Below are positions 2,994-26,721 of a stretch of 42,072 bases of DNA, piece after piece. The position numbers and the translations under genes were made by a program. This DNA comes from a virus. Under the pieces are notes generated by a model, which was given only the letters and a program-made list of their open reading frames with translations, was not told the DNA's origin and did no database searches. Position 1 is the stretch's first letter; each line of letters begins with the position of its first letter. The DNA lies in the IMG/VR virus record IMGVR_UViG_3300046665_000286, positions 1 to 42,072 of that record; one strand, given 5' to 3'.

Positions 2994-3485
2994 ATGGCCG
3001 GAAGCGTCAACAAAACAATTCTCGTCGGCAACCTCGGGGCCGATCCTGTCGTGCGACACACTCAATCAGGAGCGATGAACGTCAGCTTTAGCGTCGCGAC
3101 TTCCGACACGTGGCGCGACAAGGCGACCGGCGAACGGAAGGAAAAGACCGAATGGCATCGCGTGCTGATTTGGTCCGAGGGGCTTTGCAAGGTCGCCGAG
3201 CAGTATCTCAAGAAAGGCTCGAAAGTCTATCTTGAGGGTTCGTTGCAGACTCGTAAATGGACAGATCAAGCCGGCGTCGAGCGATACACGACGGAAGTCG
3301 TCTTACAGGGCTTTAACTCAAGCTTGACCTTGCTCGACAAGGCGCAAGGCGGCGTGCCCGCACCCGACGATTCCTCGCGCCCTGAGTCTGGTTTGCAGTC
3401 TCGCCCCGGCGTCGCCCCGCGCGGCACCGCAGGCCGCACGGCCGCCGGCGGCAATTCCGACATGGACGATGACATCCCGTTTTAA
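2994..3485 (+). CDS. ssb: Single-stranded DNA-binding protein
   Basis: A 163-residue SSB. Residues 1-107 match the OB-fold of bacterial SSB (start [15 protein letters not shown]; central [25 protein letters not shown]). A Gly/Pro-rich linker follows, and the protein ends DMDDDIPF, the acidic tip that recruits replication partners. It protects single-stranded DNA during phage replication and can bring host proteins to the fork. It sits at the head of the replication part of the early operon. GGGAAA lies eight bases before the ATG. Confidence 0.95.
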
Positions 3486-5082: not shown

Positions 5083-5579
5083 CTAAAAAACTAAACGTGT
5101 TTCAGACTTTCCGTGTCTATCTCGCGGGGCCGGTTACTGGCCTGCACTATGACGGCGCGCAGGATTGGCGCGACAAGGCGCAAGACGCTCTCGCCTTGGC
5201 GGGTGTCAAGGCATTCTCGCCGCTTCGATCTAAGCAATATCTGCGCGCCGTCGGCGAGTTGCAGGCAACCGCCGAGGGCTACGGCGATCTTAGCGCAATG
5301 TCGACTCCACGCGGCATCATGACCCGCGATCGGTTCGACGCAACGCGTGCCGACGCCTTGCTCGTCAATCTGCTCGGCGCGACGCGCGTCTCTATCGGCA
5401 CGTGCATGGAAATCGCTTGGGCCGATCTCGCGCGCATTCCGGTTGTGGTCGCGATCGAGCCCGCCGGCAATGTTCATGAACACGACATGATTAACGAGGC
5501 GACAGGTTATCGCGTCGGCTCGATCGACGCGGGTATCGAGATCATCAAGGCGATGGCTGACAACGGAATCGACCTATGA
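5079..5579 (+). CDS. Nucleoside 2-deoxyribosyltransferase-like enzyme
   Basis: A 166-residue protein starting at GTG 5079 (GTGA overlap with the preceding stop, G-rich ribosome binding site). It matches the 2-deoxyribosyltransferase fold: YLAGPVTG (14-21) is the nucleotide-binding loop; the segment around 82-98 ends in ADALLVNL; GTCMEIAWA (107-115) places Glu111 where the catalytic glutamate lies; HEHDMINEATG follows. Known relatives exchange bases between deoxynucleosides or cleave nucleotide N-glycosidic bonds. In a phage it could adjust nucleotide pools, make an unusual base, or remove a nucleotide signal of host defence. The exact substrate cannot be read from the sequence. Confidence 0.72.
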   Translation: MTKKLNVFQTFRVYLAGPVTGLHYDGAQDWRDKAQDALALAGVKAFSPLRSKQYLRAVGELQATAEGYGDLSAMSTPRGIMTRDRFDATRADALLVNLLGATRVSIGTCMEIAWADLARIPVVVAIEPAGNVHEHDMINEATGYRVGSIDAGIEIIKAMADNGIDL

Positions 5580-5923: not shown

Positions 5924-6414
5924 TCGACCCGGCAATTCTGAGCAGCGACGGCGTTAAGGCCGTTCTCGCCCGCTTTCCCGGCGCGCAGATCGTCGAGGTT
6001 CGCGATTTGACGCCGGGCCTCGTCAAGGGCGCGGCCGTGAAGGTGACTTACGAAGAATTGGGCGAGGCCGCTCGCTATGAGCAGGCGCGCGCCGAGGCTG
6101 CGATTTCCCGCGCCCTCGAAACGATCGCCGGCGAGAACGTGTCGGAAGCGGCGCGCGACTTGGCGGCACGTATCGCGCAAGAGCAGCGCCGCCGCGCCGA
6201 CGTGTTCCGCTTTATGGTCAAGATTATCGATATCGTGAGCAGCGACGGCCCGGTTAAGCGCCGCATGCGCGACATCGCGCGGGCGGAAGCCGAGGCGCGC
6301 GCCGAGGCGGCGCAGGATACCCAGGAATCCGGGGGCGACAATTCGGATAGCGAGCGCGCAGAACGCGAGCGCGCCGAGGCCGATGCGTATCGCGCCGAGG
6401 GCGAGGCGTCCTGA
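5920..6414 (+). CDS. Unknown protein with long charged coiled coil
   Basis: A 164-residue product from ATG 5920 (overlap with the preceding stop). Residues 1-48 form a small strand-rich domain; residues about 49-164 are one highly charged helical region rich in Glu, Arg and Ala with repeats such as AEAEARAEAAQ. Composition suggests a coiled coil or flexible tether. Its TGA overlaps the primase ATG, so it may act with the primase; that link rests only on position. Confidence 0.6.
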   Translation: MIDPAILSSDGVKAVLARFPGAQIVEVRDLTPGLVKGAAVKVTYEELGEAARYEQARAEAAISRALETIAGENVSEAARDLAARIAQEQRRRADVFRFMVKIIDIVSSDGPVKRRMRDIARAEAEARAEAAQDTQESGGDNSDSERAERERAEADAYRAEGEAS

Positions 6415-7721
6415 TGCGCGGCGACCCGAAATATACGCCCGCGCAACTCGACGAGTTGCGGGCGCGGCATCCTGTCGATGAATACGCCGCCGGGCTTGTG
6501 GCGCTACGCTCGACGCGCCGCGGGCAATGGACGCATGCCGGGCCTTGTCCGTTGTGTTCGCAGCGCACGAATTCGAAAAGCGCCGGCCGGTTTGAATGTA
6601 ACGGCGAAACGTGGGTTTGCGCTGTCTGCCACGAGAACGGCGACATCATATCGCTTGTTCGCGCTGTCGAGGGCGTGGGCTACTTCGAAGCAATTGAGCG
6701 CCTTGGGGGCGTCCGCGCCGAGGAAATCAATTCTACGGTTGCGCTACGCGCTGGGCGACGTGATTACGAGACGGCGGCCGTCAAAACGGATGCGCCGGCG
6801 ACGGTGCCGGTTAAGTTCGCTGTTACAGATCCTCTGCGCGACGCCTATCTCGCCGGTTGGCTCAAAGCGGCGAGCGCCGCAGCGGCCTCGATCAAGTATC
6901 GCGCGCGCGAGCGCGATCGTCTGCTCGCATGGTGGAACGCTGGCGCGCATTGGCGCGGCACGCCCGTCGCGGCGTATCTGTCGGGCCGCGGCTTGCTGCG
7001 GCCGAGCAATGCGCAACTGCGCTACCATGGCAGCATTCCGTTGTTTTGCGACGGGCGCGAGCGCGAGCCGGTTCTCGTGCATCGTGGCCCTGCCATGCTC
7101 GCGGCGATTTGGGCGCGCCCCGACGAATTTATCGGCCTGCATATCACTTGGCTCGATCCCGCCGGCCCGAAAGGCAAGGCTGAATGCGTTAGCCCGATCG
7201 ACGGTGAGGTTCTGCCGTCCAAAAAGGTGCGCGGCACGAAAGCCGGCGGTTACATCGATCTCGGCGGTTGCGATGAGCATCGCGCCGTGCGGCTAATCGC
7301 TGGCGAGGGCATTGAAACCGTTTATGCGGCCTTTACCGGGCTGGTGCGCAACGGTCGCGACGTGTCGCGAACGATGCTCCGCAGTTCGGTCGATATCGGC
7401 AACCTTGCCGGCAAGGCGCTGGCAATGCTGCCGCACCCGACGGCGCGGGCGGCGAACAACCGGCCGCAACGTGTGCCCGGTCCTGATCCCGATTTGTCGT
7501 CACCGGCGATGCCGCTGCCGGCGACGATCTCGGAGGCCGTGTTTCTCGGCGACGGCGATTCCGACCCGTTCTTTACCCGCAACGCTCTTGAACGCGCGAA
7601 GCGGCGACATCAGCGCGACGGCCTGCATATCGGCACGCCGTTCGCGGAATCCGGTTCTGACTTTAACGACATGATCCCGGCCTCGGCTGGGGATGAAATG
7701 CAAGACGAGGCTACACAATGA
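6414..7721 (+). CDS. DNA primase with CHC2 zinc finger and Toprim domain
   Basis: A 435-residue primase-like protein. Residues 45-72 are a zinc ribbon with CPLC (45-48) and CAVC (69-72), followed by HENGDIISLV, the signature of CHC2 primases. Residues about 285-430 carry a Toprim domain: EGIET near 297 gives the acidic residue of the first motif, and LGDGDSDP near 378-385 the DxD-type motif. It would lay RNA primers at the phage fork. The following helicase starts four bases before its end (ATGA), so the two are made together, as in P4-type systems where both activities are in one protein. Confidence 0.85.
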   Translation: MRGDPKYTPAQLDELRARHPVDEYAAGLVALRSTRRGQWTHAGPCPLCSQRTNSKSAGRFECNGETWVCAVCHENGDIISLVRAVEGVGYFEAIERLGGVRAEEINSTVALRAGRRDYETAAVKTDAPATVPVKFAVTDPLRDAYLAGWLKAASAAAASIKYRARERDRLLAWWNAGAHWRGTPVAAYLSGRGLLRPSNAQLRYHGSIPLFCDGREREPVLVHRGPAMLAAIWARPDEFIGLHITWLDPAGPKGKAECVSPIDGEVLPSKKVRGTKAGGYIDLGGCDEHRAVRLIAGEGIETVYAAFTGLVRNGRDVSRTMLRSSVDIGNLAGKALAMLPHPTARAANNRPQRVPGPDPDLSSPAMPLPATISEAVFLGDGDSDPFFTRNALERAKRRHQRDGLHIGTPFAESGSDFNDMIPASAGDEMQDEATQ

Positions 7722-9607
7722 CGAACGCGCGTGACCCTTACGAGAAAATCGCTAGTTTAGTTGAAGGCGATTCGCCGGGTGAAGATTACGCGTCGTTTAT
7801 GGCTCGCGTCTCCGCAGCCCCGCACCCCGACGACGACGACGCCCCGCACCCCGCCGGCCGTGGTGCCCCTGAATTTTGGCAGGGCGACGATGACGCGGTG
7901 CCGCCCGATGATATGGCACCCGCCGACGCCGCGGATATTTCGCCTGAGATCATTTTGCGCTGCGCGAGCGAGCCGCAAAACGACATCGGCAACGCCAATC
8001 GCCTACTTAATTACTTTCGCTCCGATATCTTGAACGTGCGCGATGCCGGGTGGCATGGCTGGCACGAAAGCCGCTGGCGGCGCGAGGGCGGCAAAGAAAT
8101 CGCGACGATGTACGCGCACCGCACGGCCGCCCGCATCGCGCTTGAAGCCGAGTACATCACGGCGACATCGATCGAGCAGCATGCGATCGACGAGGCCGCG
8201 GAAGCGCACGCGGATTTGCAGGCGCTCGGTAAAGTCGAAAAGCTAACCGACGATCAGGTCGCCAAAAAACGCCGACTGAGTGATATCGTCGAGCGCGGTC
8301 GCGCGGCCCTTGCGGCGATCGAGGCGCGCCAGATCGCGCGGCGCAAATACGCCGTCTCGTCGGGCAATAGCGGGAAAATCCGCGGCATGCTTGAGCAGGC
8401 CGAGCCGTATCGAACCGTCGACATCGCCGAGCTTGACGCCGACAAGCTCGCATTCAACGTCGGCAACGGCACGCTGCATTTCGTCGGGCGCGATGTGCCC
8501 GACCCTGATGCCGGCGATCATTCCGACAAGGTGACGCGCAAGTATCATGTCGAGTTGAGGCCGCACAACCGCGAGGAATACATCACGAAAACTGCGCCAG
8601 TCGACTACAATCCAAAGGCGAAAGCGCCGCGATTTGTGGCTGCAATTACGCGGTTTCAGCCGATCGACGCCGTTCGCTCGTTTCTGCAACGATATCACGG
8701 CTATGCACTTACGGGACTGACCGGCGAGCAGTGTCTCGTTTTCAACTACGGCACCGGCGCGAATTGGAAATCGACCTTTGTCGAGGTCGTTGCGCGCATC
8801 ATGGGCGACTATTGCGCAACTATCCAATTCGAATCGATCGCCGGCGAGTCGCAGAAAAGCGGTTCGCAGGCATCGCCCGACATCGCCCGGTTGCCCGGCG
8901 CGCGGCTCGTGCGCGCTTCCGAGCCTGATCGCGGCGTTCAAATGAAAGAGGGTTTGATTAAAGCTCTCACGGGCGGCGAGCCGATGCTCGCGCGCCATAA
9001 TTTCAAAGACTTTTTCGAGTTTCGGCCCGACTTCAAGCTCGTGCTGTCGGGAAACCACAAGCTCGAAATCGGCGGCGTCGATCATGGCATCTGGCGTCGC
9101 ATGCGCTTTGTCGAGTGGCCGGTGACGATCGCCGACAATGAGCGGCGCAAGATGGATGAAGTCATGGCCGAGCTTTGGGAGGAACGCGCCGGGATTTTGA
9201 ATTGGCTCGTCGAGGGTGCGCTCGATTATCTCAACAATGGCCTGCGCACGCCGAAAGAAGTGACCGACGCGACTGATAGTTACCGCGAGGAAAATGACCC
9301 CGTGGGTGCGTTTCTCTCGCAATGCGTGGTGATGGTGCCGCCTAACCCCGATGGCTCGGCGGCGTCGACGGTGCCCGCGCGGCAGCTATACGATGCTTTT
9401 GAGGCGTGGGGAGAGATCAACGCCGTGCGGGCGTGGCGCGAGAAATCATTCGCGCAGGCGATGTCTCAAAAGGGGCTTGTTAAAGAGCGGCACAAGCTCG
9501 GGCAGCGATACTTGCATATGCGCCTCGACTATGTGCCGCAGCGTGCGGCGCGTAAGCGTGACGACGAAGCGCCCGCGCCCGGCGATGACGATGTGCCCTT
9601 TGAGTAG
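7718..9607 (+). CDS. P4/D5-type superfamily 3 replicative helicase
   Basis: A 629-residue helicase. The first 75 residues are acidic and low-complexity. Residues about 80-290 form a D5-like N-terminal region. The ATPase core has Walker A GTGANWKST (345-353), a Walker B-like strand ARLVRASE (395-402), and a motif-C-like segment from VLSGNHKLEIGG to GIWRRMRFVEWP (442-468) with the sensor Asn and arginine finger region. The C-terminus ends DDDVPFE, much like the acidic tip of SSB. It should load at the phage origin and unwind DNA. Walker A has Trp where Gly usually precedes the Lys. The probable origin lies just downstream. Confidence 0.88.
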   Translation: MTNARDPYEKIASLVEGDSPGEDYASFMARVSAAPHPDDDDAPHPAGRGAPEFWQGDDDAVPPDDMAPADAADISPEIILRCASEPQNDIGNANRLLNYFRSDILNVRDAGWHGWHESRWRREGGKEIATMYAHRTAARIALEAEYITATSIEQHAIDEAAEAHADLQALGKVEKLTDDQVAKKRRLSDIVERGRAALAAIEARQIARRKYAVSSGNSGKIRGMLEQAEPYRTVDIAELDADKLAFNVGNGTLHFVGRDVPDPDAGDHSDKVTRKYHVELRPHNREEYITKTAPVDYNPKAKAPRFVAAITRFQPIDAVRSFLQRYHGYALTGLTGEQCLVFNYGTGANWKSTFVEVVARIMGDYCATIQFESIAGESQKSGSQASPDIARLPGARLVRASEPDRGVQMKEGLIKALTGGEPMLARHNFKDFFEFRPDFKLVLSGNHKLEIGGVDHGIWRRMRFVEWPVTIADNERRKMDEVMAELWEERAGILNWLVEGALDYLNNGLRTPKEVTDATDSYREENDPVGAFLSQCVVMVPPNPDGSAASTVPARQLYDAFEAWGEINAVRAWREKSFAQAMSQKGLVKERHKLGQRYLHMRLDYVPQRAARKRDDEAPAPGDDDVPFE

Positions 9608-9691
9608 CGTAGCGGGGTTACTAGACGCCCGCACTATTCCGGCTCTTGCTGGTTTTGCGGGCGTTCGCGGTGATTTGCGCCGTTCCCCGCG

Positions 9692-9981
9692 GTGTAGGGA
9701 TGTAGGGACGGTGTACCGTTCGGATATCACCATACACCGCGTTTTCGGCAGACGTAGTAAGGGCTTAGCGGGGGTCGGTGTAGGGATGTAGGGTAAAGTG
9801 CCCTATACGCGTAGCGAAATTACGAAAACCGGCTTTTCCGGCATTTTTCAAAAACTCTACACGTATAAATCTCATTTTACCCTACATCCCTACATCAATG
9901 ACCAATAAGTCATTGAAATGGTGACACTAATTACGGTGTAGGGTCGGAAACCTTGGGTACATCCTCCCTACATCGCTACAC
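9692..9981. other. Probable replication origin: symmetrical TGTAGGG repeat array
   Basis: In the 402-base gap after the helicase gene, the 16-mer GTGTAGGGATGTAGGG occurs at 9692-9707 and 9778-9793, and its reverse complement (15 of 16 matches each) at 9880-9895 and 9966-9981. Spacing is 86 bases on each side and all four copies are symmetrical about 9836/9837. Half-copies at 9936-9943 (GTGTAGGG) and 9730-9737 (CCATACAC) are mirror images too. The inner copies extend into longer arms (TATACGCGTAG 9804-9814, CTACACGTATA 9857-9867). Each 16-mer is itself a tandem TGTAGGGA. The core 9815-9880 is richer in A/T than its surroundings. Iterons plus an AT-rich core beside primase and helicase genes fit an origin. 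Confidence 0.65.
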
Positions 9982-10009
9982 CAACGGAACAATGCGAGGA
10001 TTTGGGGCG

Positions 10010-10954
10010 ATGAAAAAAAATATCGACATTGAAAAGCTCGTGCGCTGGGCACTGCGCGATGAGTTGCCGAAAGGCCGGCCGGTTTCTGACGATCTCGGCC
10101 GTGTGATCGCAAAGCGGTTCGATCGTCGCCCGCTCTCCATCGCGACTGGTGCGCGCCCCGATATCGACTCGCTCGGATACGTGCCCGGCGCGCCGCACGA
10201 GGATGCCGAGCGCGTCGCCGATGCTGTGGCGTGCATTCGCACGGAAGCTCGTTTCTCGCTCTCGGAGGCAATGGCTGATGCGCGCAAGCTGATGCGCGAC
10301 CTGTTGCCGGTCACACACGTTGCAACCCTGCGCGAGATCGCGGGCGTCGTGGTCAATCCGCAAGCCCTCGTCGTGTCGTGTGGCATCGGCAATCGTCGGC
10401 CGGGTTGGGATTTCGCGCCGCGTTGCTCGCAAGGGATGGTTCCCTATCGCAACGGACGCGGCGCACTGCGGCAGCGGCCGATCGTCGAGGGTTTTGACGA
10501 CGCCGGCGCGCTCGTTGAGTTGAAGCCGAACCGGGGCAAGGCCGCAATGAAGCGCGGGGCGTATGATGCGCACCGCGAGCCGCGTTCGCCGCTCAACTGG
10601 CACGCTGCGTCGCTGCTTTCGATCGGTGTTGCGCGAGCGGAATACTTCGCTTGGCAGAACGCGATTGCGGGGCTTGCGCACGCCCTCCGCGGCGCGCTCG
10701 TCGAGTTTGAGCCGGTTGCGCCGGCGGCCGTGCCGTTCCCTTGGATCGACGGGCAACCGACTTCGCGCGTTCTCTCCGATGGTTTCCCGGCCGGTTTGCT
10801 GACGGTGCCACTCGCCCTCGGCCCGACTCGCGAGGCGACGCCGCGGCCGTATGAAACCGCTCTTGAAGTCGAAGCGCGCCGCGGGGCGGCTAACTATCAA
10901 AAGGCGCGAATTGCAAAAACCGCTGCGGTTAGGGCACAACTCGCAAAAGCGTAG
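10010..10954 (+). CDS. Unknown protein downstream of the origin
   Basis: A 314-residue protein. ATG 10010 follows GGGGCG by a few bases and lies 28 bases after the last origin repeat, so its promoter is probably inside the repeat array and may be controlled by whatever binds there. Residues 1-40 are helical (LVRWALRDELPKG); the middle has several Cys and Trp residues and a basic segment. I recall similar proteins beside P4-type primases in alphaproteobacterial prophages but know no function. A replication accessory role is a guess from position. Confidence 0.6.
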   Translation: MKKNIDIEKLVRWALRDELPKGRPVSDDLGRVIAKRFDRRPLSIATGARPDIDSLGYVPGAPHEDAERVADAVACIRTEARFSLSEAMADARKLMRDLLPVTHVATLREIAGVVVNPQALVVSCGIGNRRPGWDFAPRCSQGMVPYRNGRGALRQRPIVEGFDDAGALVELKPNRGKAAMKRGAYDAHREPRSPLNWHAASLLSIGVARAEYFAWQNAIAGLAHALRGALVEFEPVAPAAVPFPWIDGQPTSRVLSDGFPAGLLTVPLALGPTREATPRPYETALEVEARRGAANYQKARIAKTAAVRAQLAKA

Positions 10955-11181
10955 CGGGGTCACTGTACGGTGAACAAGTCACGCGGCTATAGATCGATCC
11001 ATCGGATACGCTGCCGATCTTTGTAAGACGACTTGATCGCGCTCAACCGGGCGGCCATTGGAAGGCCCGGAACGTCTCTGAGGGGTTATCGAAATGCTCA
11101 AGTAGCGACGGCCTAACTACACATTCAGAAAACGCGGCGCTGCCCGACGCCTCACTCGGGCAAACAATTCGAGGCGATTGA

Positions 11182-11427
11182 ATGACCAAAGAAATCAAAC
11201 CCGGCAACTATATCGACGTGCGCATGATCGCCGTCGCTGTCGACGGTTCAAATGTCATTGCTCGCCTTCCTTCGAAAAGCGCCGTGCATCAGTTCACGAT
11301 CGGCGCGCACCAAGTACAGAACACGGCACCGCGCTCGCCCGATGCGATCGCCGCGGATGTGGTCTGTTCCTCCTATGACGGCCTCGTGCCGTTGCAAGAT
11401 CGTCGCGCGCGAACGCTGCGACGTTAA
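11182..11427 (+). CDS. Small unknown protein
   Basis: An 81-residue protein with a ribosome binding site (GAGGCG, nine bases before the ATG). It begins MTKEIKPGNYIDVRMIAVAV and looks like a small beta-barrel with a basic tail (DRRARTLRR). It stands alone, with more than 200 bases on each side holding no convincing gene. The upstream gap (10955-11181) contains a 7-bp hairpin (11141-11162) without a T tract and otherwise nothing I can identify. Confidence 0.55.
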   Translation: MTKEIKPGNYIDVRMIAVAVDGSNVIARLPSKSAVHQFTIGAHQVQNTAPRSPDAIAADVVCSSYDGLVPLQDRRARTLRR

Positions 11428-11493
11428 CCAATCCGCATGGAATGCGCGGCGTGTGCTTGCTGAATAAGCGCACGGGCGAATCATTCGAGCGGC

Positions 11494-11616
11494 TATCACC
11501 ACGCGCGGCACTCGGCCACGCTTTACAAGATAGCGCGCACCAACCCTAGCCCTGAGTTAGGCTCTTGATAGTGCGGTGACTGATCTAGCTCGCGAGTTAA
11601 CGAGCGCGTGGTGATA
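11494..11616 (+). ncRNA. Candidate structured RNA in the gap before the packaging genes
   Basis: A perfect 13-bp inverted repeat (TATCACCACGCGC at 11494-11506, GCGCGTGGTGATA at 11604-11616) encloses 97 bases. Inside, CAAGA (11526-11530) can pair with TCTTG (11563-11567), and CCTAGC/GTTAGG (11545-11561) forms a hairpin with a 5-base loop. No ORF of any length fits here. It could be a small RNA, a structured leader of the gene at 11639, or a DNA site. The strand is assumed from neighbouring genes. Confidence 0.35.
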
Positions 11617-11638
11617 CTAAATCTCGCGGGGTCATGGC

Positions 11639-12148
11639 ATGCAGATCGTCGTTAGTGGAACGATGGCGCAAGTCATGGCCCCGTTGCGCAAGATCGCCGG
11701 CGGCAAAATGGCCGTTCTCGAAAACGGTTTGAGCGACGGCGGCGACAAGGTGCGCACTAAGGTACGCAAGGCGCTCAAGACGCAAACGAACGTCAAGAAA
11801 TACGGCACGATCACAAGCCGTGTGCAAGGCGCTCGTCGCGGCCTGTCCTACGTCATCACTGGCGAGGGCAAGGGCTTGCCGATTGATGAATTCCCGGTGT
11901 CTGCGCCGGGTAGCGTCTCGGCCTCGCCTTGGGGCGTTATGCGCAAGTTCAAGCGTTCGTTTGTGCGAGCCGGCAAATTCGTTGCGCGCCTCTCGTCGAA
12001 ACGCTTTCCGGTGCGACGGCTCTATGGCCCGTCGATCGCCAAGGAAATCGTCAAGGATCAATCGCTCGCCGCGTTCGAAGCTGGCGTTCGCACTGACATC
12101 GTTCCCGAAATCGATAAGCGCCTCGCGCGCCTGCTGAGTGGTGGCTGA
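11639..12148 (+). CDS. Tail completion protein, lambda gpZ-like
   Basis: A 169-residue protein. The C-terminal half, around FVARLSSKRFPVRRLYGPSI (residues about 116-135), is typical of the prophage minor tail protein Z family: a basic strand followed by LxGPS and a helix. The N-terminal half has the basic helix seen in these proteins. Relatives act at the head-proximal tip of the tail so that it can join the head. Here the gene lies before the terminase genes, apart from the other tail genes. GCGGGG lies a dozen bases before the ATG. Confidence 0.65.
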   Translation: MQIVVSGTMAQVMAPLRKIAGGKMAVLENGLSDGGDKVRTKVRKALKTQTNVKKYGTITSRVQGARRGLSYVITGEGKGLPIDEFPVSAPGSVSASPWGVMRKFKRSFVRAGKFVARLSSKRFPVRRLYGPSIAKEIVKDQSLAAFEAGVRTDIVPEIDKRLARLLSGG

Positions 12149-12150
12149 CA

Positions 12151-12441
12151 ATGGCGATCAATCTTAGTGCAATCATCGCGTGGTGCTTGCGCCTTGCGAT
12201 CTATGGACTTGTGACGATCGTTGCCTTGTTCGCCGCTGGCGTGGCCGTGATGTGCGGCGCACCGCATGGCGTCGTGTTCTATGCCTATATCATCGGCGCG
12301 CCTGTCACCGGCGTTATCATCGCCGAGTGTGCTGTGCGTCCGATGCGCCTGTCCTTTGTCGTGTCGCGCTGTCGATTAAAGCGCGCTGTGATGTCGGCGA
12401 TCGGCCGTGCCCGCGCTGCCGCTCGCCTGCGCCCTTCCTAG
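12151..12441 (+). CDS. Small membrane protein with two membrane helices
   Basis: A 96-residue protein starting two bases after the gpZ-like stop, with GGTGG upstream. Hydrophobic segments at about 5-33 and 40-60 are likely membrane helices, and the C-terminus is strongly basic (RLKRAVMSAIGRARAAARLR). It sits between a tail gene and terminase, where phages often keep small unassigned genes. Function unknown; a holin role is not excluded but the lysis genes are elsewhere. Confidence 0.5.
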   Translation: MAINLSAIIAWCLRLAIYGLVTIVALFAAGVAVMCGAPHGVVFYAYIIGAPVTGVIIAECAVRPMRLSFVVSRCRLKRAVMSAIGRARAAARLRPS

Positions 12442-12459
12442 CCTCGCCGATCGCCGTTC

Positions 12460-12515
12460 CCGCGTGGGATAAAGGGTCCTTCCCAAGGGCGGGGGGGACG
12501 CGCGGCCGCCGCAGT
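12460..12515. other. Possible cos/packaging start region
   Basis: The short gap directly before the small terminase gene holds a cluster of G/C symmetries: CCCGCGTGGG, CCTT-CCC-AAGG (12478-12488), a run of seven G (12491-12497) and CGCGGCCGCCGC. In lambda-type phages cos lies next to the Nu1 gene, and this is the matching place. No ends can be proved from sequence alone. Confidence 0.3.
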
Positions 12516-12558
12516 CCGGCATATTTTCAGTTTGCTAGTTGAAAAATCAGGGTTGACC

Positions 12559-13185
12559 ATGTTGACGCCCGACTCCCGGCCGGTTGACGCCCCGGATGTT
12601 GCCGTTTTGCCACTCGCGCCGGCGGCCGTGATGTTCACGGTTTCCGAGATCGCCGAGCGCGACGGCATTTCAAAGCAAGCGGTTTCGAAGCGCGTCAAGG
12701 CGCTCGTCGACGATCACGGCCTCGCGGTCGAAACCGATGCGCGCGGCAACGTCGCCCGTGTGAACGTCGTGCATTATGATCTTTTGCGCGAGCGCCACGG
12801 CAACCCGTCGAAAGATCAGCGCCCCGCGCCCTCGACTGAGTCGAGCGCGCCGGCCGGCGACTCATACGAGGAAGCGTTGCGCCTCAAAACGCACTATGAG
12901 GCGACGCGCAAGGGTATCGAGCTTGACGAGCAAATGGGCAAGCTCGTGCGGGTCGACGAGCTACAGCAAGCCGTTGCGGATGTTGGCGCGGAAATCGCCG
13001 CCATCGTCGGCAAGGTGGAACAGGAAGCAGACGCGCTCGCCGCGGCCGGCATGCGCGACGGGCCGCACGGCATTCGCGTCGCATTGAAGCAAGTCAAATT
13101 TCGGATGCTGACTGAGATCGCCGACGCGCTCGACGCGCTGGGCAAGCGCAACGCGCAGGCGAGCGAGGCATCCGCCGGAAACTAA
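12559..13185 (+). CDS. Terminase small subunit, Nu1-like
   Basis: A 208-residue DNA-recognition subunit of the packaging motor. Residues about 25-75 form a winged helix-turn-helix (FTVSEIAERDGISKQAVSKR), which should bind the packaging site. Residues about 105-140 form the charged helix (EALRLKTHYEATRKGIELDE) found in Nu1-type proteins, followed by a helical domain that contacts the large subunit. ATG 12559 was chosen; an in-frame TTG lies 27 bases upstream. Its large-subunit partner follows after three bases. Confidence 0.82.
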   Translation: MLTPDSRPVDAPDVAVLPLAPAAVMFTVSEIAERDGISKQAVSKRVKALVDDHGLAVETDARGNVARVNVVHYDLLRERHGNPSKDQRPAPSTESSAPAGDSYEEALRLKTHYEATRKGIELDEQMGKLVRVDELQQAVADVGAEIAAIVGKVEQEADALAAAGMRDGPHGIRVALKQVKFRMLTEIADALDALGKRNAQASEASAGN

Positions 13186-13188
13186 CCC

Positions 13189-15270
13189 ATGCGTTCGCAT
13201 CCCTCGGCGCGCGGCGTCATCGCCGAGCGCATGGCGCTTTCAATCCGCCCGCCGGTGCCCGTGCCGGTCGCGCAGTGGATGAGCGAAAATATCGTTCTCG
13301 TCGACGGCCCCGCGGCCGGCGGATTGTGGAACGCGAGCGGCGCGCCGTATCTCGTCGAGATCGCGAATTGCCTTTCGGACGATCATCCGTGCAATTTCGT
13401 CACGGTACGCAAGTCGCAGCAAACCGGCGCGTCAATTCTCGCGCTCGGTTGGTGTTTGTATGTCGCCGATCGCGAGCCGGCCAATCTGCTTTATGCGGTG
13501 CCCGGCCTCGACGCGCTCAAAGACTTGAACAACGGCAAGCTGCAACCGCTTATCGAGGCGTGGCAGAAGAAAACAAAGCGAACCGTCATCCTGCCGCAGA
13601 CCGCGCGCTCTGGTAACGGCTCGACGGCCGGCGAAAAGGTGTTTGCCGGCGGTCGCCTGTATCTGGCGAACGCAAATTCGGTCATGGATTTGTCGTCTAA
13701 AACGATCAAGAAAGGCGTTCGCGACGAATATTCGAAGTGGTCGGACATCGACGGTTACGGCGACCCCGGAAACTTGTTTTTCGGTCGCTTTACCGCCTTC
13801 CGTCGCACAAAGAATTTCAAAATCCTCGATATCTCGACGCCGGAAGTCGACACCGGCGACGAAACGGGACAAACCGAGGGGCATTGTCGCATCGATACGC
13901 GCTTTCGGCTCTCCGATCGGCGTTTCTGGCATTGTCTCTGCCCTGAGTGCGGGCAATTGTTCGTGCATCGCGACGATCAACTCGTCGTCGATAAGGATCA
14001 TCCGCACCGCAGCGCCTATGCCTGCGATTGCGGGCACCATATTTCGGACGCCGAGCGTATTATCGCGATCGACCTCGGCGAATGGATTGCGACGCACGCG
14101 GCCGGCAATCATCCCGGCTTTCATATCGATGCGTATGTGTCGAAGATGATGAGCTATGAAGCTATCGCCGAGGATAAGCTCAAGGCGACGAGCGAGACGG
14201 CAAAGAAAGACTATTCAAACCTAATCCTCGGCCTGCCGTTCAAGTATCGCGGCGACGCGCCCGATCATGAAAAGCTCATGATGCGCCGCGAGGATTGGAT
14301 GAAACGCGGCACGGTGCCGCCGAAAGGTCTAATCATCACGGCCGCCGCCGACGTGCAGATGCGCGGCATCTGGCTCGAAATCGTCGCGCACGGTGCGAAC
14401 CGCGAGTCCTGGCTGATCGAGGCTATCTATCTCGACGGTGACACGTCAAATCACCGCGGCGATGTATTCGATCAGCTACGCAAGCACACGATCGACAAAA
14501 AGTTTCCCGACGCGTTCGGCGGCGTTCGCCGCATTGACGCGCTCGCGGTCGACTCGGGCTATCGATCGAACACGGTCTATGCGTGGGTGCGGGAAAATCA
14601 ACGATTGCACCATGACACGGGTTTCGACCTGATCCTCGCGACGAAGGGTCAACCCGGCTGGGGCAAGCCTGCTATCGGACAGCCGACGCTCGTCGATATC
14701 GACTTAGCCGGCCGCAAGATCAAGCAAGGCTGCAAGGTTTGGAACGTCGGAACGTGGCCGCTCAAAGCCGACTTCTATTCGTATCTGCGGCAGGATGGTT
14801 TGAAGTCGGGCAAGGCGGAAATTCTGCGCGACCCCGACGGTTACTGTCATTTCGGAATGTGGGTGGATGAGGTCTATTTCCGGCAGTTGACGGGCGACCG
14901 ACTCGAGCAAGTTAAAGTGCAGGGTCGCGTCGCGGGGCAACGATGGGCGCAGATCAAAAACAACCATTTCCACGATACGCGCATCTATAATCAAGCGATG
15001 GCCGAATATCTCGGCATGTCGACAATTACGCCGGAAGGCTGGGCCGATCTCGCCCTGCGCCGTGGCCTTCCGTCTGAGTTAAGCGAGCTAAGTCTGTTTT
15101 CAGCCTTGGCCGCTCCGGTTGCTGACACGTCGAGCGCACCTCACACAAACGACAGTGACGAGACGCAGCAACCGGAAAACATCAGCGATCAGGCTCAACC
15201 GCCTCGCTCGACGCAATCGAGCGGCGGCAGTTGGCTTAATCGCGATACTAGCGGATGGGGACGCCGCTAA
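13189..15270 (+). CDS. Terminase large subunit, gpA-like
   Basis: A 693-residue packaging ATPase-nuclease of the lambda gpA family, close to the usual length. The ATPase part has a Walker A-like loop RKSQQTGAS (about 74-82) and the conserved YAVPGLDALKD segment. A zinc-ribbon-like insert with CLCPECG (about 247) and CDCG (about 280) is typical of gpA. The C-terminal half is the nuclease (AVDSGYRSNTVYAW near 450-463). The last 50 residues are Ser/Thr/Gln-rich and variable. It cuts concatemers and drives DNA into the prohead. Family membership implies defined cohesive ends, not headful packaging. Confidence 0.93.
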   Translation: MRSHPSARGVIAERMALSIRPPVPVPVAQWMSENIVLVDGPAAGGLWNASGAPYLVEIANCLSDDHPCNFVTVRKSQQTGASILALGWCLYVADREPANLLYAVPGLDALKDLNNGKLQPLIEAWQKKTKRTVILPQTARSGNGSTAGEKVFAGGRLYLANANSVMDLSSKTIKKGVRDEYSKWSDIDGYGDPGNLFFGRFTAFRRTKNFKILDISTPEVDTGDETGQTEGHCRIDTRFRLSDRRFWHCLCPECGQLFVHRDDQLVVDKDHPHRSAYACDCGHHISDAERIIAIDLGEWIATHAAGNHPGFHIDAYVSKMMSYEAIAEDKLKATSETAKKDYSNLILGLPFKYRGDAPDHEKLMMRREDWMKRGTVPPKGLIITAAADVQMRGIWLEIVAHGANRESWLIEAIYLDGDTSNHRGDVFDQLRKHTIDKKFPDAFGGVRRIDALAVDSGYRSNTVYAWVRENQRLHHDTGFDLILATKGQPGWGKPAIGQPTLVDIDLAGRKIKQGCKVWNVGTWPLKADFYSYLRQDGLKSGKAEILRDPDGYCHFGMWVDEVYFRQLTGDRLEQVKVQGRVAGQRWAQIKNNHFHDTRIYNQAMAEYLGMSTITPEGWADLALRRGLPSELSELSLFSALAAPVADTSSAPHTNDSDETQQPENISDQAQPPRSTQSSGGSWLNRDTSGWGRR

Positions 15271-15414
15271 TTGCGTCGTGTGAGTGAAGGCGGACTTTCG
15301 CATCCGCTGGGGGAATACCCGACGATCACGACGCCTTGCCGTGTGCGATCACGGCGTTTGCATCACGTTGTCGCGCGCGCGAGGGGGCCGCAGCGCCGGT
15401 GACGTGGTGCGTTC

Positions 15415-15467
15415 AAGGCCGCTCGGCTCGCGCTCAAAGCGCGGATGCCGGGCGGCCTTTTTGTTTT
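15415..15467 (+). terminator. Intrinsic terminator or attenuator after the terminase gene
   Basis: A perfect 8-bp stem (AAGGCCGC 15415-15422, GCGGCCTT 15452-15459) closes a loop that can itself fold, followed by TTTTTGTTTT. It lies only 20 bases before the gpW-like gene, so it probably limits readthrough into the head genes. The gap 15271-15414 shows no gene. Confidence 0.65.
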
Positions 15468-15486
15468 CGGCAAAGGGGGCCGCGCA

Positions 15487-15696
15487 GTGCAAATTTGGAC
15501 GATGGACGATTACGCCGCGCTCGCGAAAGCGATGGGCACCGGCGCATTGGAAGTGCAATTCGGCTCGGGCGACAACGCGCACCGAACGAAATTCCGCTCA
15601 CTCGCGGAAATGGAACGCATGCTCGATCGCATGGAAAATTATCTCGGCATCAATACCGGCTCGACGACGAGCTTTGTGCAGCATCGGCGGGGTTAA
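15487..15696 (+). CDS. Head-tail joining protein, gpW-like
   Basis: A 69-residue protein from GTG 15487, chosen because AAAGGGGG lies just upstream and the resulting length matches gpW-type proteins (about 68 residues). The product has the helix-hairpin-helix layout of that family: a first helix (DDYAALAKAMGTG), a strand pair (LEVQFGSGD, RTKFRSL) and a last helix (EMERMLDRMENYLG). Such proteins bind under the portal and prepare the head for tail joining. It lies between large terminase and portal, as in lambda. Confidence 0.75.
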   Translation: MQIWTMDDYAALAKAMGTGALEVQFGSGDNAHRTKFRSLAEMERMLDRMENYLGINTGSTTSFVQHRRG

Positions 15697-15699
15697 CGC

Positions 15700-17190
15700 A
15701 TGTCGGCAATGTTAAGGGCGCTGGCATGGGTCGCGCCGGCCGCGGCCATTCGCCGTGCGCATGCGCTCGCGGCGCTCGACGGGCAACGATCGTATGACGC
15801 CGCTCGGCGTGGTCGACGCAATGCCGGTGTGGCCAGCAAGAGCGGTAGCGCAAACGGTGCGATCGGCCCGGCTCTCGCCGCGCTTCGCGAAGCGTCGAGC
15901 GATCTCGTTCGCAACACGTGGATTGGCTCGCGGGCTATCGATGTGCTGTCGGCGAATACGATCGGCACCGGCATTACCGTCGCGTGGCGTGATCAAAAGG
16001 TACAAGACCTTTGGAATGAGTGGTGCCTCGGCGCGGATATCGAGGGCGAGAAGGATTTCGCTGGCGTGCAACTCGTCGCTTTCCGCTCGATGCTGGAACG
16101 CGGCGACTCGGGCGTGCGTATGGTTCCGCGCAAGATGGGCAGCGGCCGAACGGTGCCGCTTGCTCTGCAATGCGTCGAGGGCGACGTGATCGCAACCGAG
16201 CGCGACGGCATTTTCGATGGCAAGAAATCGCGCCTCGGCGTGGTGCTTGGCGATTGGAACGAACGCCTCGGCTATTGGCTGCACAACGAACATCCGGCCG
16301 AGTCAACGGGCTGGCGATCGCCCTCGCTTGTGCCGAGCTTCGTGAAGCGGGATGATTTCTGTCACCTTTACCGGCCAATGCGCGCCGGGCAGGTTCGCGG
16401 CGTGCCGCTGCTCGCGCCCGTCGCGCAGACGGTGCGTGACTATTTCGACGCGGAAGATGCAATGATCGTCAAGCTTCGAATGGAAGCTTGTTACGGCCTG
16501 ATCGTCACGTCGAATGATCCGGTTCGCAATCTCGCCGGCACGGGCGCGCGCAAAGACGAGGACGGCCGCAATATCGAGGAAATGTCGCCCGGTATGGTTT
16601 TCCGTGGGCGGCAGGGCGAGACGGTGCAAGCGTTTTCGCCGTCGGGTTCGGGGCAATTCGAGCCTGTTGCGTTCGCTGCGCTCATGGGCATCGCGTCGGG
16701 CGGCATGGTCACTTATGACCAACTAACCGGCGACTTGCGCAAGGCGAATTACTCGTCACTCAAAGCGGGCGACCGAATTTTCCGACGCCTCGTCGAGCAG
16801 ACGCAGTGGCTAACGCTTGTGCCGCAACTGATGCACCGCGTCACGTCGCGCTTTATCGATACCGCCATTCTAGCCGGCAAGCTGAAAGAGGGCGTTTATC
16901 CGCGCGATTACGTGATGCCGGCCGTTGTCCCGATTGACCCGTTGAAGGATCTAAAAGCCGACATCCTCGCCGTTCGCGCCGGGCGCATGTCGCCGCAGGA
17001 ATTCATCGGCGAATGGGGCCGCGATTGGCGCTCGGTTCTCAAAGAAACCAAACAATTTTGGACTGAGGCCGACAAAGACGGCCTCGTCTTGGATATCGAC
17101 CCGCGGCGCACCGATCAAGCGGGTGCGGCGCAGGCGAATGACGATGCGTCGGACAATGCCGACGCCTCGGATGATAGCGAGGAAAAATGA
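15700..17190 (+). CDS. Portal protein, lambda gpB-like
   Basis: A 496-residue portal of the lambda family. The N-terminus contains the conserved region from LVRNTWIGSRAIDVLSANTI and GTGITVAWRD (about residues 68-94), and the middle has the segment VPLLAPVAQTVRDYFDAEDA. The last 40 residues are acidic and low-complexity (DNADASDDSEE). Portals form the dodecameric ring through which DNA enters and leaves the head. The gene follows the gpW-like gene after three bases and overlaps the capsid gene (ATGA at 17187). Confidence 0.92.
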   Translation: MSAMLRALAWVAPAAAIRRAHALAALDGQRSYDAARRGRRNAGVASKSGSANGAIGPALAALREASSDLVRNTWIGSRAIDVLSANTIGTGITVAWRDQKVQDLWNEWCLGADIEGEKDFAGVQLVAFRSMLERGDSGVRMVPRKMGSGRTVPLALQCVEGDVIATERDGIFDGKKSRLGVVLGDWNERLGYWLHNEHPAESTGWRSPSLVPSFVKRDDFCHLYRPMRAGQVRGVPLLAPVAQTVRDYFDAEDAMIVKLRMEACYGLIVTSNDPVRNLAGTGARKDEDGRNIEEMSPGMVFRGRQGETVQAFSPSGSGQFEPVAFAALMGIASGGMVTYDQLTGDLRKANYSSLKAGDRIFRRLVEQTQWLTLVPQLMHRVTSRFIDTAILAGKLKEGVYPRDYVMPAVVPIDPLKDLKADILAVRAGRMSPQEFIGEWGRDWRSVLKETKQFWTEADKDGLVLDIDPRRTDQAGAAQANDDASDNADASDDSEEK

Positions 17191-19211
17191 CGCACAAACG
17201 ATTGCGGACGCGCGCAGCCGCGCGCCCGCGGACGACGCCTGACGGTTTCGAGCCGGGGCTGATCGTCGAGCGTAAGGCGGGCGATGACATCACCGCCCGC
17301 TTTGCGGCGTCGAGCTACAATTCGGAAGCGCACACGGTTGAAGCGGTGTTTTCCGCTGGTACGCGTGTTGCCCGTTGGGGCGCGTGGGAGGAATTGGCGA
17401 TCTCGACCGATGCGATCGACCTTAACCGGGTCGCGCTCGGGCAGGTTCGTTTGCTCGATACGCACAATCAAGGTTCGGTCAACGCCGTTTTGGGCGTTGT
17501 CGAGAACGCGCGGATTGAGGGCGGCAATCTTGTCGGCCGCATCCGCTTTGCCGACACAGACGCCGGCCGCAACGCCGAGGGCATGGTCGCCCGCGGCGAG
17601 ATTTCCGGCATTTCTGTCGGCTACCGGGTGACGACGTGGACTCTCGCGTCACTCGAATCCGATGTCGAGGTTTGGCGGGCTGACAAGTGGGAGCTTCTTG
17701 AAGTCTCGCTAGTCGCCGTCCCGGCAGACCCGCAAGCGTCGATCCGATCGACGAATGTTCAAGCACAACGGGCCGATGAGGCTCAATCAATGGAGAATGA
17801 CGACATGCGGCGCAATGCTGCCAATCCGACCGCCGAGCCTCTTGCCGGCGCTGCTACCGTGCCCGCTGCCGACGCAACCCGCGCGGCACCCGCACCCGCT
17901 GCCCCGGCCGCGCCTGCCGCTGCGCCGGCCGTCGATTACACTGCCGACCGCGCTCGCGCCGCCGACATCCTGTCGATCGGCACCCGCGCTAACATGAGCG
18001 GCGACGACATCCGCAACGCGATCAGCGCCGGCACCTCTGTCGACGCCTTCCGCGCGCGCGCGTTCGAAGCTCTCGCCGGCAATGCCGACGCGACCCGTTC
18101 GGGCAATGTGCAGATCATCCGCGACGAAACCGAAACCCGCGCGGCGAACCTGACTGACGCCTTTACCTTCCGCCTCGGCGGCGCTGACGCGCTGCGCGAT
18201 GCCGAGGGCAATGTTCGACAGATCAGCGCCGAGGCGCGTTCGTTCGTCGATTTCACTTTCGCGGAAATGGCCGCGACCGCGCTCGGCGAACGCCGTATGC
18301 CGCGCACCGGCCGCGATCGCGAAGAAACGATCCGCCGCGCAATGCACACGACTTCCGATTTCCCGGTCATCTTCGAAAGCTCGATCAACCGCGTGCTTGC
18401 GCGCCGTTACGAGCAGCAGAAGCCGACCTATCGCGAAATTTCGGTGCAGCGCCGGTTTAAGGACTTCCGCCCGCACGATCAGATTCGCGTCGGCGACTTC
18501 CCGATGCTCAAGAAAGTCGGGCAGTCCGGCGAGATTGAGTTCGGTTCGTTCGGCGAAAGCAAGGAAACCGTGGCTGTTGCGCCGTATGGCATTCAGTTCG
18601 CGATTTCCCGCCACATGCTCGTGAACGACAATATCGGCGCCATCGACGAGGTGTTGTCGAGCTACGGCGAGTCGGTCGCGGCTTTCGAGGAAGCTCTGTT
18701 CTGGGCAATGAAGGCGCAGGCGAGCGGCCTTGGTCCCAAGCTGATCGAGGGCGGCGTGAGCGTGTTCCACGCTTCGCGCGGCAACCTCGCGGCTGCGGCT
18801 TCCGACGTGACCACGGATGCTCTGAGCGCGGCCCGCGCCGCTATGCGGAAGCAGAAGAACGCCGCCGAGCGTCTGCTCAATATCTCGCCGGCCATTCTGG
18901 TTTGCGGTGCCGATCAGGAAACGAACGCCGACAAGGCGCTCGCGGTGATCACGCCGACGGCCGAGGGCGATGTCAACCCGTTCGGCGGCAAGCTCCGCAA
19001 GGTGGTTGCGCCGATCGAGGGCGATCAGTGGGAAGTCTACGCCGAGCCGAGCAAGATGCCCGTGTTCGTATGGGGCATGCTCGAAGGCTATGACGCGCCG
19101 CGTCTGCGCCTCGATAACCCGTTCGGTACGCAGGGCGTCGGCGTTTCGATGGAACACGACTTCGGCGTCGGTGCGATCGACTTCCGCGGCGCGTATCGCG
19201 TTCCCGGCTAA
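17187..19211 (+). CDS. Prohead protease fused to major capsid protein
   Basis: A 674-residue polyprotein. Residues about 20-190 are an HK97-type prohead protease: LLDTHNQGSV gives the catalytic His93 and GEISGISVGYRV the nucleophile, probably Ser143; LLEVSLVAVPADPQA ends the domain. Residues about 205-250 are an Ala/Pro-rich linker, and about 255-345 a helical scaffold-like region. Residues about 350-674 are the capsid (FAISRHMLVNDNIGAIDEVL near 470-490). In HK97-like phages these are usually two genes. An internal ATG (17790, codon 202) has GAGG eight bases upstream, so a separate scaffold-capsid product may be made. Confidence 0.88.
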   Translation: MTHKRLRTRAAARPRTTPDGFEPGLIVERKAGDDITARFAASSYNSEAHTVEAVFSAGTRVARWGAWEELAISTDAIDLNRVALGQVRLLDTHNQGSVNAVLGVVENARIEGGNLVGRIRFADTDAGRNAEGMVARGEISGISVGYRVTTWTLASLESDVEVWRADKWELLEVSLVAVPADPQASIRSTNVQAQRADEAQSMENDDMRRNAANPTAEPLAGAATVPAADATRAAPAPAAPAAPAAAPAVDYTADRARAADILSIGTRANMSGDDIRNAISAGTSVDAFRARAFEALAGNADATRSGNVQIIRDETETRAANLTDAFTFRLGGADALRDAEGNVRQISAEARSFVDFTFAEMAATALGERRMPRTGRDREETIRRAMHTTSDFPVIFESSINRVLARRYEQQKPTYREISVQRRFKDFRPHDQIRVGDFPMLKKVGQSGEIEFGSFGESKETVAVAPYGIQFAISRHMLVNDNIGAIDEVLSSYGESVAAFEEALFWAMKAQASGLGPKLIEGGVSVFHASRGNLAAAASDVTTDALSAARAAMRKQKNAAERLLNISPAILVCGADQETNADKALAVITPTAEGDVNPFGGKLRKVVAPIEGDQWEVYAEPSKMPVFVWGMLEGYDAPRLRLDNPFGTQGVGVSMEHDFGVGAIDFRGAYRVPG

Positions 19212-24230: not shown

Positions 24231-24246
24231 CAAGAGGTTAGGTTAA

Positions 24247-26526
24247 ATGGAGAAAATTGTTAACTTCGGCCCGCGCCAAAAGGTGACGGTCGACGACATC
24301 AATAACATCGGACTCGATGCCCGCGAGGGACTCGACCATGTTGTCGGCGACGCGCTCGTGCCGACCGCGAAATATGCCGGTGCCGACGTTGCGATCAGCG
24401 CCTCGACGAAAGTCAAGGTTGCGACGCCTGCGCGTCTTTATCGGCAGGGCCGCGTTTACGGCAACGAAATCTCGGGCGGTATCGAGGTCGACTTGCTGCC
24501 GCAACTGCCGACGGCGGGCTTTAAGCGCATCGTTGCGCTGACGTTGACCGGCAGCGCGCAAGACGATCAAGTCGAGGAACGTGACTTCCTGACGAACGCC
24601 GTCACTCGCGAGACGCAGGCGCAGCCGACGGCAACCCGGAACATCCGCGTTGCAATGGTCAACGTGATCGCCGGCGCTGCCGCTGTCGACCCGGTGCAAC
24701 CTGCAATCCCGGCCGAGCATCTGGTTATCGCCTATGTGACGCTGACGCCGACGGCTGTTTCGGTCGTGACACAAGTTACGAACAACCGCCTTGCGAGCAT
24801 CGTCGATATGGACGGTCGCCTCGTGGTCGTCGAGCAGTGGAAGGACATCACGCAGCCGATCATCGACGGTATGCGATCGGACATCGCCAAATTGCAGCAG
24901 GGGCAGAACGGCGCGCAGTCGCGCGGCATGACTGTCTATCTGCTCGAACAGGTGGCGCGCCTCTCCGATCGTATCGGCGTGAACGAATCGGCGTCCTATT
25001 CGCGAACCGATTGGTTCCTCGATCAGGACGATTCCGACATCACGCATCCGCAGTACCTCGCCAAGGTTGAAGAGGGCTTCCGCTTCGCAGACGCGAACGC
25101 CGAAACCTCGTCGCCCGTGCTGTCGAACCCGGCCGATACGAAATTCTCGATTTCGTCTGACGGTCTGCTCTTGCCGGCCTATAGCAACGTGCCGCTGGTA
25201 TCGAATATCGGCAAGGATAGCGAGATCGCGCTGTCGAACGCCGGTGCGCAGAACGTCAATGTCATTGCGCGCACGGTGTCGAAAACCCGCGTTCGCTGGG
25301 GCAGCTCTTACGTCGTCTGTACTAACTCGGCGATGTGGCAGTCGGGCCGCTATGACCCGACGACGGGCATTTTCACTGCATCCAGCGGCGAAACCTTTCA
25401 GGTTGCAAACCCGGAAGTCGCGCTTATCAATCATCAGTGGGTGCGCCTCGATCAGTTTTGGACCGACACTTACGAGGAAACCTATTGGGATACGATCGTC
25501 ACGACGGCGGCCTTTACCGGCAACGTCTGCGCGCAATCGTTCCTCGTGCCGCGTGCGGCTTGGCTTACGAAAGTTCGGCTCGGTTTCAGCCGCCTCGACT
25601 CGCAAGGCGACCTTCGTGTCGTTCTCTGCCGCGTGACGGCATCGGGTGCGCCTGATCCGAAAAACGCGCTCGCCGTGGTGACGGTTCCGGTTGCAAATCT
25701 GCGGCTCTATCCGACGATTACCGAAATCCCGATCCCGCCGACCTATGCGGAAGCCGGCGAACGCCTCGCCGTGCTGCTTATTACGGGTGGCAATCATTGG
25801 CTTGCGATGGCCGAGAACAACAAGTATGCGCAAGGCACGTTCTTTATCTCGACTGACGCCGCATGGTTTCAGGGAGATATCTCGCGCGACGCGTGCTTCG
25901 AAGTGCAGGCCGCGCAGTTCATCGCGCCTCGCATCGTCATCGATCTCGACCCGTGGTCGTGCAATGGCGGCATGACCGATATCGACATGAACCTGACTCA
26001 GATCGCGCCGAATCCGAGCAAGATCATTTTCGAAGTCAAGGTCAACAATATTTGGTATCCGGTCGCGGCCCCGGAAGCGGGCAATGCTAATCACCCGCTC
26101 TATGGACAGCCGGCCTCGGTTGGCGCGCGTATGACGCTGATCGGCACAACGGAAGTGATGCCGGGTATCTATCTCAACAAGTCGAAGGTCACGCGTTCGC
26201 GGCCTCGCGTTGATGGCGTGCATATCTCGACGCCGCGCAATGCGCCGTCGAATGTGACGGAAGTTCAAGTCATCGCGACGCTTGAACATATCGACACGGC
26301 CTATCACACGTGCGGCGTCAAGCTGTTGCGCGGCGCGGGTTATACGACTGAGGTTGGCCCGACCACGACGACGGACGTTGTGCAGCCTGACGGCTCGGTT
26401 CGCCGAACCTTCACGTTTGCCGGCCTTACGGCGCTGTCGACGTACAAGCGCAAAATCACGATGGGCACTGACTCGCCGTTGCGCGTGTTCCATGTCGCCT
26501 GTCTGACTGACGTTGCAATCCCGTAA
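24247..26526 (+). CDS. Large tail fibre or baseplate-peripheral protein
   Basis: A 759-residue protein with AGGTTAGG before its ATG. Residues 1-110 (VDDINNIGLDAREGLDHVVG; VKVATPARLYRQGRVYG) look like the virion-binding head of fibre proteins of the DUF4815 kind, which is a recollection and not a computed match. The middle is mixed and the C-terminal 250 residues are strand-rich, with FEVQAAQFIAPRIVIDLDPW near 560. It follows gpI, where fibre genes normally start. It probably forms the fibre or collar that carries the adhesins at 26803 and 27738. Confidence 0.65.
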   Translation: MEKIVNFGPRQKVTVDDINNIGLDAREGLDHVVGDALVPTAKYAGADVAISASTKVKVATPARLYRQGRVYGNEISGGIEVDLLPQLPTAGFKRIVALTLTGSAQDDQVEERDFLTNAVTRETQAQPTATRNIRVAMVNVIAGAAAVDPVQPAIPAEHLVIAYVTLTPTAVSVVTQVTNNRLASIVDMDGRLVVVEQWKDITQPIIDGMRSDIAKLQQGQNGAQSRGMTVYLLEQVARLSDRIGVNESASYSRTDWFLDQDDSDITHPQYLAKVEEGFRFADANAETSSPVLSNPADTKFSISSDGLLLPAYSNVPLVSNIGKDSEIALSNAGAQNVNVIARTVSKTRVRWGSSYVVCTNSAMWQSGRYDPTTGIFTASSGETFQVANPEVALINHQWVRLDQFWTDTYEETYWDTIVTTAAFTGNVCAQSFLVPRAAWLTKVRLGFSRLDSQGDLRVVLCRVTASGAPDPKNALAVVTVPVANLRLYPTITEIPIPPTYAEAGERLAVLLITGGNHWLAMAENNKYAQGTFFISTDAAWFQGDISRDACFEVQAAQFIAPRIVIDLDPWSCNGGMTDIDMNLTQIAPNPSKIIFEVKVNNIWYPVAAPEAGNANHPLYGQPASVGARMTLIGTTEVMPGIYLNKSKVTRSRPRVDGVHISTPRNAPSNVTEVQVIATLEHIDTAYHTCGVKLLRGAGYTTEVGPTTTTDVVQPDGSVRRTFTFAGLTALSTYKRKITMGTDSPLRVFHVACLTDVAIP

Positions 26527-26535
26527 GGAGGGAAA

Positions 26536-26721
26536 ATGTCGAATACCGAAAACACCACGATCGACCCGGAAGGGCAGTACAAGGTTGAGCTTACGCGATC
26601 GATTAAGGTCGGTCGCACAAGCATTCATCCGGGGCCGCGCGTGATCCTGCGCGGCGACATCCTGTCGGACACACTCGCCGCTGATGCGAGCGTCGTGTCG
26701 AGCTACGTCGCCGCAGAATAA
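26536..26721 (+). CDS. Small unknown virion-region protein
   Basis: A 61-residue protein with the strongest ribosome binding site of the tail cluster (AAGGAGGG before the ATG). It is strand-rich (YKVELTRSIKVGRTSIHPGP) and may be a small structural or chaperone protein for the preceding fibre. A terminator follows directly. No family recognised. Confidence 0.55.
   Translation: MSNTENTTIDPEGQYKVELTRSIKVGRTSIHPGPRVILRGDILSDTLAADASVVSSYVAAE

Follow-up and report, generated by a model that had tools for sequence, protein, structure and literature searches.

The repeat array that occupies the 402-bp non-coding gap downstream of the helicase gene of this virus raises the question whether it is a replication origin and, if so, whether it represents a new type of phage origin, as the original prediction had proposed. 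The window, i.e., the whole stretch of 42,072 nucleotides that was analyzed, is a virus record of IMG/VR and encodes on the plus strand a D5-type helicase (7718-9607; Pfam D5_N, 2.6e-19, and Pox_D5; PHROG DNA primase, 1.4e-130), which is the proposed initiator. The next gene (10010-10954, plus strand) matches phrog_9306. A separate primase gene with a zinc ribbon and a PHROG DNA primase match (6414-7721) and a gene annotated as single-strand DNA-binding protein (SSB, 2994-3485) are located on the same strand, and a terminase gene (13189-15270) follows about 3 kb downstream of the array. Both the primase and the helicase gene had been said to end just upstream of the array; the helicase gene ends at 9607 and the primase gene at 7721.

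The array, the candidate origin, spans positions 9692-9981, is not assigned to a strand, and is mirror-symmetric about the centre 9836.5. It contains four 16-mers, two direct and two inverted, and their positions and symmetry had been predicted correctly to the base, but two of the four copies deviate by one base from the reference. The outer left doublet GTGTAGGGATGTAGGG (9692-9707) and the inner left doublet (9778-9793) are exact copies on the plus strand, with centres at -137 and -51, while the inner right doublet (9880-9895) and the outer right doublet (9966-9981) on the minus strand, with centres at +51 and +137, have one mismatch each. The direct spacing is 86 bp on both sides of the centre. 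Two half-copies obey the same symmetry, namely the degenerate inverted word CCATACAC (9730-9737, minus strand) and its mirror GTGTAGGG (9936-9943, plus strand), which lie at exactly -103 and +103. A further mirrored pair of degenerate words had been overlooked, i.e., TGTACCG at 9712-9718 on the plus strand, at the offset +19 where locus L001 and others carry a full word, and its counterpart at 9955-9961 on the minus strand. The repeats are thus present in both orientations on either side of a core (9794-9879, no strand), the proposed melting region. As predicted, this core is AT-richer than the end of the helicase gene (63% versus 38% AT), though its AT-richness is only moderate.

The array is real and non-random. 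The word TGTAGGG occurs eight times in the 42-kb window, and all eight copies lie within positions 9693-9972; the expected number is 0.75, and eight copies were reached in no shuffle. When each possible centre in the 42 kb was scored for complementary positions within 145 bp, the centre 9836.5 ranked first with 89 of 145 positions, far above the runner-up (65) and the mean of the window (38, standard deviation 5.8). Scans with Rfam and for tRNAs gave no matches, and a blastn search of the intergenic region against phages yielded chance matches only. The GC-skew minimum that had been expected at the array was absent, and the skew was weak throughout the window. The missing minimum counts against an origin at this site, though in a window in which the skew is weak everywhere.

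Close relatives, i.e., viral contigs and genomes from pattern and helicase searches that encode helicases with 55-64% identity, revealed how the array is conserved. A single helicase sequence as query gave no match, and an alignment was required as query to find related loci. The relatives with an array include Bradyrhizobium sp. BTAi1 and Rhodopseudomonas sp. B29, and no locus without the array was found among the close relatives, in agreement with the original prediction. The clearest full template was locus L001, in which words are present at the offsets 0, 8 and 19 (plus), 37 (minus), and 86 and 94 (plus), followed by the core and the mirror image. Across 12 aligned loci the mean column identity was 0.84 in the blocks versus 0.64 between them (p=1.7e-13); the blocks are kept in register, and the intervening DNA is not conserved. 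Two loci, L014 and L057, carry TGTTGGG or TGACGGG at the same positions, and therefore the word drifts while the layout persists.

TGTAGGG recurs also beside distant helicases, at the loci L003, L033, L043 and L073. At L003 (8683-9018) the words mirror each other exactly, the inner ones at +/-81.5 and +/-89.5, and the array adjoins a very distant DUF5906 helicase (about 25% identical) at a place where two gene blocks diverge. The recurrence of the word at these four loci is not predicted by a simple reading in which one protein recognizes one word; it reflects either convergence or an ancient specificity.

A candidate for the protein that reads the words is the C-terminal domain of the helicase itself. 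The last 120 residues were modelled with AlphaFold, and the model is a winged helix (helicase residues 527-605, encoded by 9296-9532, plus strand) with a block-mean pLDDT of about 78-90 over model residues 21-100. Structure comparison gave a Z score of 8.7 with the origin-binding domain of phage P4 (1ka8; rmsd 2.3 over 78 residues, 22% identity), 8.9 with the C-terminus of the ASFV PrimPol, and 9.2 with the RFX DNA-binding domain. The predicted fold of the helicase C-terminus is therefore a winged helix that resembles the origin-binding domain of the P4 alpha protein. Such middling scores are typical of winged helices generally, and RFX scored as high as P4, which counts against reading the fold as origin-binding. 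The model of the full helicase, which is of mediocre quality (pLDDT 64), matched the ASFV PrimPol, which has been solved as hexamer and dodecamer. For the D5-type helicase Cch2 it has been described that the C-terminal domain alone binds iterons downstream of the Cch2 gene (PMC7581432). In addition, among 27 arrays the similarity of the words follows the similarity of the C-terminal domains beyond that of the AAA+ core, with a modest correlation obtained with automatically chosen words (partial Mantel r=0.28, p=0.001). A host protein is unlikely to be the reader because the words differ among phages of the same host class.

The layout was compared with those of known origins, and two phage elements that are annotated as origins in their records were found to share its mirrored geometry. 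In Lactobacillus phage A2 the annotated rep_origin lies directly 3' of the primase, and the word ACGGGAG is found at +/-38.5 and +/-114.5. In Streptococcus phage Sfi21 a feature at the same place is annotated as 'origin of replication, 302 bp non-coding region, phage inhibitory sequence', and its TTAGTTAC doublets with a period of 8 form an exact mirror about an AT tract. Both resemble the array in their position downstream of a D5-type primase-helicase and in their inner inverted words about an AT-rich core, and A2 also has outer copies of the word, 76 bp further out. They differ from the array in their words, ACGGGAG and TTAGTTAC, and in a core that is much AT-richer, and A2 differs also in the lag (76 versus 86) and in having primase and helicase in a single protein. 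The origins of the staphylococcal SaPIs, compared by their description in the literature, likewise have iterons directly downstream of the Rep helicase gene, and the SaPI origin is said to consist of two iteron sets that are symmetric about an AT-rich region, a description attributed to Ubeda et al. 2012. According to PMC7581432, the SaPI Rep helicase recognizes its iterons through the C-terminal domain and apparently does so as a pair of hexamers. In contrast to the replicon studied here, the SaPIs are phage satellites.

The P4 system, with ori/crr and the alpha protein, shares with the array's system the C-terminal origin-binding fold, which is predicted in the present case. The alpha protein is a fused primase-helicase, two separate sites are used, and the P4 iteron is GGTGAACAGT. 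In contrast, the primase gene is separate here and the words form one cluster; the P4 iteron was not found, even when one mismatch was allowed. At the SV40 and papillomavirus origins two SF3 hexamers are loaded by inverted groups of short sites, and such groups are also a feature of the array. However, these SF3 helicases have an N-terminal DNA-binding domain (PMC7581432), whereas that of the array's helicase is predicted to be C-terminal. A classical tandem-iteron plasmid origin, in which direct repeats all point the same way and lie to one side of the AT-rich region, does not fit the array, and the cluster of boxes that marks a DnaA-box origin is not present, as the DnaA box TTATNCACA is absent from the window.

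The array thus lies downstream of a D5 helicase and has inverted sets about an AT-richer core, like the symmetric-iteron D5/SF3 origins of the SaPI, A2 and Sfi21 kind, and the C-terminal winged helix of this kind is present as a predicted fold. It is already known that origins directly downstream of a D5/SF3 helicase can have inverted iterons arranged symmetrically about an AT-rich core, and the claim of a new type of phage origin had to be given up, as the annotated A2 and Sfi21 origins share the geometry with other words.

The symmetry itself had been regarded as unusual for an iteron origin, and this view was not upheld by a survey of 60 non-redundant D5-helicase loci from phages, plasmids, viral contigs and a sample of alphaproteobacterial genomes. 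In the mirror test, exact 7-mer pairs with a common mirror centre were counted in the 800 bp downstream of each D5 helicase, and at least two pairs were required for a pass. Exact mirror symmetry was detected at 27 of the 60 loci, compared to none of the 527 tiles that were taken from the same records as controls (Fisher p=3e-30), and none of 700 shuffles passed. In the genome sample the test was passed by 11 of 24 loci. Some of the 33 loci that failed this strict exact-word test have degenerate arrays, and the others may truly be without one. The words vary by locus (ACGGGAG, TGTTACT, GGAGGGT, GGACAGT, TTGCCTC and others), and the spacing within the doublets was 9 bp in 18 loci, which was the commonest value, and 8 bp in seven. 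In a strict scan for four blocks, 14 of the 60 loci scored higher than any of 960 shuffles, and their lags ranged from 57 to 97 bp. The outer lags (75/86/96) look suggestive of helical phasing, but this is confounded by the 8-9-bp period of the doublets and is not claimed.

We conclude, with a probability of roughly 0.83, that the 290-bp element is a phage replication origin that is read by the C-terminal domain of the upstream helicase, with two inverted sets of sites flanking a melting core. The earlier proposal of an origin with protein binding sites is thereby well supported, by the geometry of A2 and Sfi21, by the place beside the initiator helicase, and by the predicted P4-type winged helix. 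According to the proposed mechanism, the winged helix would bind the TGTAGGG words, and the doublets on either side would seed two helicase assemblies, probably hexamers, on opposite sides of the AT-richer core and oriented towards each other. The two assemblies would melt the core and load head to head, two diverging forks would start at the array, and the separate primase and the SSB would act next.

Several alternatives were weighed, and the first is that the array serves to control transcription: a phage regulator would attach to the inverted doublets, perhaps with the intervening DNA in a loop, and would either control the genes after 10010 or repress the replication operon. Inverted operator pairs with intervening DNA are common in phage control regions, and the array of L003 is indeed located where two gene blocks diverge. 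However, a scan of 9550-10100 for one promoter type, sigma-70-like, and for terminators found neither, the geometry is shared by annotated replication origins, the words follow the C-terminal domain of the helicase, and the element stays behind the helicase gene in families whose downstream genes differ. A role in transcription control is thus unlikely.

It is also quite improbable that the origin is bound by another phage protein, e.g., the phrog_9306 product, which would deliver the helicase to the site. The phrog_9306 gene stays beside the array in the close relatives, but in A2, phi105 and TMW 1.591 P1 the mirrored arrays are followed by different genes. What all 27 loci have in common is the D5 helicase, which has a predicted domain of the origin-binding type of its own.

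A role as a cos/pac site for packaging or a par-like site for partition, which the nearby terminase gene and the occurrence of repeat arrays also in par sites could suggest, is very improbable: the cos site of Sfi21 is annotated 6 kb from the mirrored element, pRN1, which is without capsid or terminase genes, has a minimal version at its mapped origin, and the array tracks the helicase rather than terminase or par genes. These three explanations are disfavoured because none of them accounts for a shared geometry with changing words at D5 helicases and annotated origins. A recent inverted duplication or a chance symmetry without function is hardly credible in view of the conserved blocks and unconserved spacers across the relatives, the wide margin by which 9836.5 is the best centre of the window, and the 27 of 60 loci versus none of the control tiles.

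Inverted doublets were noticed also in two replicons for which stem-loops have been described as mapped or proposed origins. For the archaeal plasmid pRN1, mapping placed the origin in a stem-loop of 100 nt that lies downstream of orf904, and no iterons were recognized (PMC4234260). In this plasmid (L075, NC_001771) the arms TTATGTCCATAGTGTCCAACT and its complement at about 5084-5183 are 58 bp apart and equal two inverted TGTCCA doublets with a period of 9. Like the array's system, pRN1 has an SF3 helicase with a C-terminal winged helix and inverted doublets, but it has the inner pair only, and the literature describes a stem-loop without iterons. Within the pRN family the doublets stand out clearly in pRN1 and pHEN7, whereas those of pRN2 and pDL10 are weak, with a combined p=0.001 for a period range that was picked after pRN1 had been seen. 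Judging from the sequence, the pRN1 'stem-loop' origin may consist of binding sites rather than a hairpin, which is a lead, not proof.

The next example is the Bordetella phage BIP-1, for which a stem-loop beside the helicase stop was proposed (PMC4234260). Exact inverted TTGCCTC doublets about a core are present in BIP-1 (L067) at about 5128-5233, about 480 bp past the stop of the primase-helicase gene, and they are perhaps a better origin candidate than that stem-loop.

The generality of the mirrored geometry may be the new part of these results. It suggests that the origins of D5-helicase replicons are recognizable by geometry rather than by sequence. We see even odds for a wider proposal, namely that the origins of self-loading D5/SF3 initiators in bacterial phages, phage-plasmids and archaeal plasmids share one geometric code. 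It would comprise exactly mirrored doublets of 8-9 bp with a core between them that often measures 55-100 bp, optional outer doublets at a further distance of about 75, 86 or 96 bp, and a word that changes with the C-terminal domain; the pRN1 'stem-loop' would then be no hairpin but a mirrored doublet, and the sequence alone could suffice to find most such origins. If true, the geometry would locate origins in many phages and phage-plasmids, it would explain why searches for shared iterons missed such origins earlier, e.g., in BIP-1, and it would recast the pRN1 stem-loop. For the alphaproteobacterial phage family of Bradyrhizobium, Rhodopseudomonas and relatives, for which no mapped origin was found, an origin and its initiator can now be predicted, and the question of double-hexamer loading becomes testable in a simple phage system.

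Two of the replicons carry further genes of note. The 46-kb plasmid of Methylobacterium currus (L053) encodes a D5 helicase, has no annotated capsid gene, and contains a type I-E cas operon at 9547-18619. Its result in the four-block scan was marginal (p=0.04) and is not taken as firm, and its GC-skew minimum is about 6 kb away from the array. The 41-kb phage-plasmid pP88_h of Phaeobacter inhibens (L055), which has capsid and terminase genes, encodes an acyl-homoserine-lactone synthase and an autoinducer-binding regulator at 35384-36617. In the window itself, long open reading frames overlap on opposite strands at 24238-26628 (796 versus 759 aa) and at 29130-30530 (466 versus 415 aa), which is probably an artefact of GC-rich DNA.
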